Assembly: GCF_023699475.1 (NCBI RefSeq)
Contig: NZ_JALXFV010000005.1
Span: 293,483-339,729, forward strand
From: Halomarina rubra
GTDB lineage: Archaea > Halobacteriota > Halobacteria > Halobacteriales > Haloarculaceae
Length of the DNA stretch: 46,247 nucleotides
Direction: 5' to 3'
Shown here: positions 34,125-36,468 of the stretch, piece by piece
How positions within the stretch are numbered: the first letter of the stretch is position 1
Layout of the letters: each line of letters starts with the position of its first letter
Position numbers and translations under genes: made by a program
Notes under the pieces: model-generated
Databases searched by the model: none
Seen by the model: the letters and a program-made list of their open reading frames with translations, nothing else
What the model was told of the DNA's origin: nothing

Positions 34125-34144
34125 ACCGACGACAGGCGGCGGGC

Positions 34145-34153
34145 GCTAATCAG
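34145..34153 (-). promoter_or_regulatory. TATA-like box of the small zinc-finger gene
   Basis: CTGATTAGC on the minus strand, about 26 bases before the ATG. Confidence 0.5.
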
Positions 34154-34160
34154 TGGTCGG

Positions 34161-34504
34161 TCAAGTGAGCGTTTGAGCCTACGGCATCTGTTTATGAGTA
34201 CCCCGCAAACGGTTAGTCGCCGGTCGAGGCCCGGACCCGACCCCCCGGACCACGGCCGTCCCGGTCCCCCGACCCCGTCCCCGCCCGACGCCCGCCGTGC
34301 CCCCCTCGCGACGGGCGTCCCCTCCGGCGGCCCCTCGCCGCCACCCCTCCAGTCCCCCCTCACAGGTGGGCCCCCTCCTCTCGACGACCGACCGCCGAGC
34401 AGTCGCCGGGGCTCGGTCACCGACCACAGACCACTGTCGCCCCCAGGTCGTCGCGCCAGTACGGCCGTCCACCGGACGCCACCGACCGTCAAACGCGCGT
34501 TTGA
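34161..34504. other. C-rich non-coding segment bracketed by TCAA-N8-TTGA elements
   Basis: The 421-base gap 34125-34545 is the longest without a gene. TCAAGTGAGCGTTTGA (34161-34176) and the perfect palindrome TCAAACGCGCGTTTGA (34489-34504) share the right half GCGTTTGA plus the flanking GCCT. Between them lies strongly C-biased DNA whose minus strand has five closely spaced runs of three or more G (about 34258-34285), enough for a G-quadruplex. A TATA-like TGTTTATGA at 34188-34196 could start a transcript near 34218 leading into the Beta_propel gene. No convincing protein is encoded in any frame. Confidence 0.55.
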
Positions 34505-34545
34505 GCCTTCACAACGAGTAGGGTGGTCGACGGTGAGTGAGGAGT

Positions 34546-36468
34546 ATGCGTTCCCGAACGACCGCCCTGCTCGCCGTCGTGCTCGTGGTCTCGACGGTGG
34601 GCGTCGCCGCCTTCGTCGGGCCCGAACTGCTCCCCGACGACGCGACCGACGACGACGAACCGCTCTCGATGGTCACCTCCGACTCCGCCGAGTCCTACGC
34701 CGCCTACCTCGCCGACAGCGCCGAGCACGGCGGCTACTACGGTGGGCGGGCCGACGTAGCGTTCCAAGCTAGCACCGGCGACGCCGCCGAGACCGGCGGG
34801 GCCGCCGGGACCGCCGTCGCGGCCGCCACCGAGAGCGCGGCGAGCGCCGACGGCGCGGCCAGCGGCGGCGCGCCCGAGCACTCCTCGACGAACGTCCAGA
34901 TCGAGGGCATCGACGAGGCGGACGTCATCAAGACCGACGGCAAGCATATCTACTACGCCGGGACGCGCGCCGACGCGACGCAGGTCATCGCGGCGCTACC
35001 AGCCGACTCGCCGGCCCACGTCGCCAGCGTCCCCGAGGGTGGGCAGCTGTTCCTGGTCAACGACACGCTCGTCGTCCTCGGTCACGACCACGTGACGGGC
35101 TACGACGTGAGCGACCCCGAGAACCCCGTCGAACGGTGGGACCGCACCCTGGAGGCGGGCATCCGCACCTCCCGGTTGAGCGACGGGACGCTCTACCTCG
35201 TGCTCTCGACGGCCCCGCAGGCGTGTCCCGTCGAACCCGTCGAGGGGGCCGACGTGGCCTGTACCGACGTCTACCACCCGAGCGAACCGATGCCGGTCTC
35301 GGCGACCTACACCGTCGCGACGCTCGACCCCCACGACGGGTCGCTGGGCGACCGCGTCTCGTTCGTCGGCACCTACGACTCCGTCGTCTCGATGTCCGAG
35401 AACGCGCTGTACGTCACCTACACCGAGCGGACGAACCCCCGCGAGGCGATGCTCTCGTACCTGCTGAGCGACGGCCGCTCCGAACTCCCCGACAGCGTCG
35501 TCGAGCGACTGGAGGAGGTCCAGAGCTACGACCTCTCGTCGCAGGCGGAGGCTGCCGAGGTGCAGGCCACCCTGAACGGCTGGTTCCGCTCGCTCCCGGA
35601 CGACGAACGCCGTGACCGTCAGGAAGCCGTCTACGAGGGGTACGAACGGTACCTCGACGACCGCAAACGCTCGCTGACGACCACCCACCTCGTCCGCGTC
35701 TCGACCGACGACCTCGCCGTCGAGGCGACCGGGTCGGTCCCCGGCGAACCGCTCGACCAGTTCTCCATCGACGAACACGACGGCCACCTCCGCATCGCCA
35801 CGACGGTCGGCGGGTGGAGCGCCGAGTCCGAGAACGACCTCTACGTCCTCGACAGCGAGTCCCTCGACGTGACCGGCGAGACCACCGGGATGGGCGAGAA
35901 CGAGCGCATCTACAGCGTCCGGTTCGACGGCGACCGCGGCTACATCGTCACGTTCCGGCGCATCGACCCGTACCACGTGCTCGACCTCTCCGACCCACAG
36001 AACCCGACCGTCGAGGGCGAGTTGAAACTGCCCGGCGTCTCGACGTACCTCCACCCACTGGGTGAGGACCGCGTCCTCGGCGTCGGCGAGGAGGACGGCC
36101 AGGTGAAACTCGTCGTCTTCGACTCCAGCGACCCGACGAACCCGACCATCGCCCACGGGACGGTCCTCGACGCCCGCTGGTCGGAGGCGGCCCACGACCA
36201 CCACGCCTTCCTGCTCGACGCCCGCAACGAGGTGTTCTTCCTGCCGACGGAGCACGGCGGGCAGGTGTTCGACTACTCGCTCGACCGCGTGGCCGAGGTC
36301 GACGTCGACCGGCCGCGCCGGGCGGTGTACATCGGCGAGCACCTCTACGTCGCCGGCCAGTCCGAACTCGTCGTCGTCGACCAGGGCAACTGGACCGAGG
36401 TGGCCCGCCTCGACCTGCCGAACGACGGCTACCGCTACGAAGCGGTGCCGACGAACGACGGCCGCTGA
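34546..36468 (+). CDS. Exported Beta_propel domain protein
   Basis: A 640-residue protein with an N-terminal signal or anchor helix (MRSRTTALLAVVLVVSTVGVAAF, part of 1-24) and then an acidic, Ala/Gly-rich tether. The core starts with STNVQIEGIDEADVIKTDG, the defining opening of the Beta_propel family (PF09826), and continues with blades such as TYLHPLGEDRVLGVG and LVVFDSSDPTNP. Start: ATG 34546 with GAGGAG four bases upstream; a GTG three codons earlier is the alternative. No TATA box sits at leaderless distance, so this mRNA probably has a real leader. Function unknown; relatives are extracellular. Confidence 0.9.
   Translation: MRSRTTALLAVVLVVSTVGVAAFVGPELLPDDATDDDEPLSMVTSDSAESYAAYLADSAEHGGYYGGRADVAFQASTGDAAETGGAAGTAVAAATESAASADGAASGGAPEHSSTNVQIEGIDEADVIKTDGKHIYYAGTRADATQVIAALPADSPAHVASVPEGGQLFLVNDTLVVLGHDHVTGYDVSDPENPVERWDRTLEAGIRTSRLSDGTLYLVLSTAPQACPVEPVEGADVACTDVYHPSEPMPVSATYTVATLDPHDGSLGDRVSFVGTYDSVVSMSENALYVTYTERTNPREAMLSYLLSDGRSELPDSVVERLEEVQSYDLSSQAEAAEVQATLNGWFRSLPDDERRDRQEAVYEGYERYLDDRKRSLTTTHLVRVSTDDLAVEATGSVPGEPLDQFSIDEHDGHLRIATTVGGWSAESENDLYVLDSESLDVTGETTGMGENERIYSVRFDGDRGYIVTFRRIDPYHVLDLSDPQNPTVEGELKLPGVSTYLHPLGEDRVLGVGEEDGQVKLVVFDSSDPTNPTIAHGTVLDARWSEAAHDHHAFLLDARNEVFFLPTEHGGQVFDYSLDRVAEVDVDRPRRAVYIGEHLYVAGQSELVVVDQGNWTEVARLDLPNDGYRYEAVPTNDGR

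Follow-up and report, generated by a model that had tools for sequence, protein, structure and literature searches.

What role do two short palindromic elements of the same form play upstream of a gene for an exported beta-propeller protein in the haloarchaeon Halomarina rubra? They were noticed in a window of 46,247 nt (the whole stretch of DNA that was analyzed), at a site flanked on one side by a minus-strand DUF7561 gene (70 aa, 34124-33912) and on the other by the plus-strand propeller gene (ATG at 34546). A preliminary description of this DNA had considered a long leader transcript, a regulator looping the DNA between both elements, or an RNA-based switch. We have approached the question by comparing the elements, their surroundings and the genes behind them among related genomes.

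A Palindrome Shared Across the Family

The two 16-base elements are present as first described, 328 nt apart and with GCGTTTGAGCCT common to both. Element 1 (34161-34176, plus strand) is an imperfect palindrome, TCAAGTGAGCGTTTGA, predicted to be the operator of a distal promoter (P1), and has counterparts at the same place in two species of the same genus (G004 and G006). Element 2 (34489-34504, plus strand) is a perfect palindrome, TCAAACGCGCGTTTGA, and the predicted operator of a proximal promoter (P2). They are the sole sites in the 46-kb window with at least 11 of 14 matches to TCAAACGNNCGTTTGA, and the reversed window, used as control, contained zero sites at the same threshold. Genome-wide (4.07 Mb), TCAAACGNNCGTTTGA occurs three times vs. 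none for the backward control. There are also three copies of GCGTTTGAGCCT, the third of which was set aside because it lies within a coding frame.

Searched for elsewhere and upstream of homologues, the palindrome turned out to be a family-wide feature. TCAAAC-N4-GTTTGA (in its relaxed form, TCAAA-N6-TTTGA) is found in 95 of the 146 genomes of the host's haloarchaeal family, and the same pattern read backward is rare. Matches are sparser in the other families of the order, and perfect sites are few or absent in the genera g3 and g7. For promoter comparison, 143 distinct palindrome sites were fetched. Counted from the first palindrome base, long frames starting with ATG peak at 57-61 nt (94, vs. 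about one per position elsewhere), and a TATA-like stretch lies between palindrome and start codon; when the 94 promoters are aligned, the most AT-rich bin of this interval falls at +28 to +33, which is the expected TATA place of a leaderless transcript. With a motif enriched over its backward control and a fixed distance to the target starts, the arrangement resembles a leaderless promoter with its upstream activating site. As far as these comparisons can be read, elements 1 and 2 are real, conserved and regulatory.

Two Predicted Promoters Upstream of the Propeller Gene

A first scan for propeller relatives gave mainly distant bacteria, which were left out of the footprinting. Among 30 propeller orthologue loci, 21 (from many genera) have a site 57-58 nt before the ATG, as element 2 does here, while a second site further upstream is found only in the three species of the host genus. 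The propeller gene had been described as having a strong ribosome binding site and as being devoid of a leaderless promoter. The former was not confirmed, since there is just a GGTGA 9 nt before the ATG and a Shine-Dalgarno-like 5-mer appears in only 2 of the 21 orthologues. The latter is doubtful, as element 2 stands at exactly the distance of a leaderless promoter, although it is true that the TATA-like sequence of P2 in this species, GAGTAG, is weak; most other genera have stronger TATA-like sequences at this position (ACGAGTAGGGTG here, 34514-34525, plus strand). The most economical reading would be that element 2 marks a leaderless propeller promoter, with the AT-rich bin at the TATA position, an unconserved Shine-Dalgarno sequence and a weak TATA in our own species. 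The target gene, encoding an exported beta-propeller protein (PF09826; 34546-36468, plus strand), is then probably transcribed from P2 as a leaderless mRNA. Two observations had been set beforehand as counting together against the preliminary description: a start less than 40 nt from the ATG, which is predicted here and probable, and an absence of conservation of the elements, which is clearly not what we see.

Element 1, again in the most economical reading, would belong to a second promoter with a better TATA box than P2 and a start at about 34218, kept in the two congeners. Its predicted TATA box, TTTATGAG (34191-34198, plus strand), is located about 30 nt past the first base of element 1, which matches the place of the AT-rich bin in the 94 aligned promoters. 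Both congeners have the propeller and retain two elements (TCAAACACGCGTTTGA and TCAAACCGCCGTTTGA in G004, TAAAGCGGTCGTTTGA and TCAAACCCCCATTTGA in G006), with counterparts of the TATA box 3' of element 1 (TTTATCAG and TTTATCAC) and TAGTTGCC near the expected P1 start. A transcription start near 34218, as initially suggested, is plausible for element 1 given this conserved TATA box. The proximal TATA is degenerate in all three species having element 1, so that in them a larger share of propeller expression may come from the distal promoter. Element 1 was also considered as an operator of the divergent DUF7561 gene and rejected, being 52 nt off here and distant in G006, with the TATA conserved on the plus side.

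The region predicted to be transcribed from P1 (34218-34488, plus strand) is 52% C and its strand skew ranks 3 of 4598 windows, so the C bias noticed between the elements is real. The sequence between the elements has diverged among the three species, yet it is C-rich in all of them. The stretch from 34218 to element 2 contains no T-run terminator, and because of this transcripts from the distal promoter probably continue into the propeller gene as a leader. That such a leader of ca. 330 nt represents the main mode of expression is unsupported, since the spacing of element 2 is kept in 21 orthologues, of which just three have element 1. On the minus strand, the G-quadruplex potential claimed earlier does exist in our species as a cluster of overlapping motifs (34260-34305), but the motif was not found in either of the congeners that keep both elements, and it was discarded as a conserved feature.

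Target Genes of the Palindrome

A total of 113 proteins are encoded at the right distance from a palindrome, 59 of them with a lipobox-like motif and 89 with a hydrophobic N-terminus (raw counts obtained by simple pattern rules). The biggest target group is SIMPL/DUF541, with 26 members in one cluster, and further groups comprise Beta_propel, DUF4349, VWA and PQQ-type proteins. From the predicted features of its members, the target set looks like a surface-protein regulon.

Regulon members in the own genome (G000) were listed through pattern searches. One site (C15:335292, locus L089) is followed after 60 nt by the start codon (ATG) of a gene for an exported, repeat-rich protein (MKKLYKTSVALMALLLVSSAGLAG...), which is probably another member. 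In genus g7 (L120 and L134), a palindrome precedes by 58 nt a GTG-started frame for the cytochrome/quinol oxidase subunit I (COX1), which stands out as unusual in a set of surface proteins and may have its true start elsewhere. In a single case (L101, G024 C2:234194), the gene of an IclR-type regulator starts 58 nt past a perfect palindrome, which may tie a second regulator to the circuit proposed below.

A Candidate Membrane Regulator

One of the target groups consists of HTH_20 proteins with an HVO_1552-type C-terminus (Pfam PF24267, HVO_1552_C). With a threshold of at least 10 of 14 matches, a site was found 56-61 nt before the ATG of the regulator in all 30 loci and before none of 279 other starts (hypergeometric P ~2e-42, which exaggerates the strength of the association because related genomes are not independent). 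Since the query used to collect these 30 loci by similarity was itself an autoregulated copy, the sample leans toward that type. The own copy (G000 C15:437167), with 46.9 bits for HTH_20 and 29 for HVO_1552_C (cut-off 27 for both), has TCAAAACTCCGTTTGA 59 nt upstream, and the sites of the own regulator are imperfect palindromes. A second own paralogue is located at C1:163236-163487 (minus strand, L299); no palindrome was found upstream of it. Its control may differ, or it may recognize a different operator.

Nearly all copies of the regulator show two hydropathy peaks, corresponding to predicted membrane helices, and both are helical in the structure model, one after the DNA-binding domain and the other C-terminal, with a variable linker in between that is modeled at low confidence. 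The DNA-binding domain is modeled as a winged helix; among solved structures, it is matched best by ArsR-type regulators of Pyrococcus. The candidate belongs to the HVO_1552-type regulators, a family for which we know of no operator. Its consistent association with the palindrome suggests that it binds this operator, presumably while inserted in the membrane. Transmembrane regulators are common in archaea (PMC10269533).

A Putative C-Rich Small-RNA Locus

Several palindrome sites have no gene at the right distance and show instead a C-rich sequence with GCTTCGGCCCTCC shortly past the expected start. A pattern search for this putative small-RNA locus returned 26 genomes of 10 genera, with two control hits. 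The search pattern contained part of the core, so that the conservation of that part is partly due to selection, while the copies found first through the palindrome alone show the core independently. The locus of the own genome is at C12:271549. A regulator paralogue is directly upstream in 17 of the 26 loci, and in the loci examined the gene of a YfcE-like phosphoesterase is convergent to it. CRISPR-like haloarchaeal repeats, CTTCAACCTCACAAGGGTTCGTCTGAAAC and a variant, are located between the small-RNA locus and the phosphoesterase gene (L087, 2610-2770, in G001; L085, 1671-1700, in G005).

Promoter and 13-nt core are conserved in the 10 genera and the reading frame is not. A leaderless peptide was discarded as the product, given that the frame changes, one copy stops after two codons and it is the nucleotides that are conserved. 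No consensus fold was predicted for the candidate RNA. A core maintained as nucleotides rather than as a frame, and lacking a consensus fold, would suit a pairing seed, if these RNAs are indeed produced.

A Proposed Circuit and Its Alternatives

Putting these pieces together, we propose that both elements are operators of a haloarchaeal factor. The ArsR-like winged-helix protein of the HTH_20/HVO_1552 type, with its two predicted membrane helices, is the most likely one, and we give the model as a whole a probability of about 0.82. A dimer of the regulator, bound to the palindrome immediately on the upstream side of BRE/TATA (~58 to 43 bp ahead of the transcription start), would bring TFB/TBP to a promoter that is weak by itself. 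Element 2 would give rise to the leaderless beta-propeller mRNA and element 1 to a further transcript starting near 34218, which is C-rich and would most likely be a long readthrough leader. The same operator would serve the regulator's own gene, numerous genes for exported proteins and lipoproteins, and the candidate C-rich small RNA encoded elsewhere; from this shared control it follows that the circuit probably tunes the cell surface in response to a membrane signal. Comparison among genomes provides the motif enrichment, the fixed spacing, the target classes, the autoregulatory sites and the linkage of the small RNA to regulator paralogues, and we infer that this protein inserts in the membrane and binds the palindrome, that it activates rather than represses, that it responds to a membrane signal, that transcription starts at the predicted positions and that the RNAs exist.

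ArsR-type regulators are often repressors, and the palindrome could be a repressor site at which the membrane factor, or another ArsR-like protein, silences the promoters until a signal releases it. Autoregulation, common among repressors, would agree with the site found before all 30 regulator genes. We consider this rather unlikely, as the site is not over BRE/TATA or the start but upstream of BRE/TATA, the position described for activators such as GvpE (PMC4390858), and the TATA boxes of several targets are weak. A real operator bound by a different transcription factor, with the membrane regulator as merely one of its targets, appears less likely still. Binding by the regulator is a prediction from genome comparison and there are further regulators among the targets, such as the IclR-type protein, but the site precedes every sampled regulator gene and none of the neighbors, and a regulator paralogue adjoins most of the small-RNA loci.

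The remaining alternatives concern the stretch between the elements. Perhaps the P1 transcript stops short of element 2 and is a regulatory RNA of its own instead of a leader, an unlikely option that deserves some weight because another locus of the genome, represented in 10 genera, is predicted to encode a C-rich small RNA behind the same promoter. Nevertheless, the P1 product lacks the conserved core GCTTCGGCCCTCC, for which reason it was rejected as a copy of that same RNA, and there is no T-run to terminate it. Looping between the two palindromes, as originally entertained, is very improbable: the three species with two elements have spacings of 328, 326, and 265 nt, each near whole helical turns, but a single element precedes the propeller in all other genera, and each element has a promoter position of its own. 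We give even less credit to a switch made of the C-rich leader or of its G-quadruplex complement. The strong C bias and the minus-strand motifs of our species speak for it, but the spacer has diverged between species, the congeners lack the G-quadruplex motif and Rfam gave no match in the window at gathering thresholds, which also led us to rule out a known RNA family or riboswitch there.

Comparison with Known Systems

Envelope-stress regulation is poorly described in archaea, where an operator has rarely been linked to its regulator purely through comparison. In the present case operator, candidate regulator, target class and candidate small RNA form one testable set, and the regulator family is represented in Haloferax volcanii, a genetically tractable species. 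If true, this would be a previously undescribed archaeal circuit for surface control. In the open-licence papers covered by our literature search the operator, HVO_1552 and the regulon are undescribed, an absence that is weak evidence.

The nearest working precedent of a membrane-bound factor with inverted-repeat boxes and surface targets is ArnR/ArnR1 of Sulfolobus acidocaldarius (PMC6396743), which has an N-terminal HTH and two C-terminal membrane helices (predicted in our case) and controls surface structures from inverted-repeat operators upstream of the core promoter. However, its operator is TCGAC-N5-GTCGA vs. TCAAA-N6-TTTGA here, its targets are pili or archaella instead of exported proteins and lipoproteins, and it contains HAMP and sensor domains (PMC6396743) where our candidate has a variable, low-confidence linker; the Pfam scan of the own regulator gave no match to HAMP. 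Because of these differences in operator and domains we do not class the regulator as ArnR. CsmR of Haloferax volcanii also uses a haloarchaeal semi-palindromic operator upstream of BRE/TATA, but the sequence is TATCA-N4-TGATA, which its authors compared with Lrp/AsnC motifs, and the targets are motility and cell-shape genes (PMC13286277). Similarly, the upstream activating sequence of GvpE consists of two half-sites 4 nt apart, beside BRE, and activates a haloarchaeal promoter, although the half-sites are 8 nt long and of other sequence, and GvpE is a soluble leucine-zipper-like activator of gas-vesicle genes only (PMC4390858).

At the level of the whole circuit, the arrangement is similar to one of bacteria. 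As in our proposal, a single membrane-linked path would govern the genes for surface proteins together with its own regulator and a small RNA (a candidate in our case), and this is the layout of the bacterial sigma-E response, a membrane-linked signal path with small RNAs. Here there is no sigma/anti-sigma pair, and a one-component archaeal winged-helix protein would take its place. We put forward, tentatively and at somewhat less than even odds, that haloarchaea possess a membrane-embedded ArsR-like activator which, through a single palindromic operator, controls both a surface-maintenance regulon and a C-rich small RNA acting in trans, as an independently built archaeal counterpart of the sigma-E/small-RNA envelope response.
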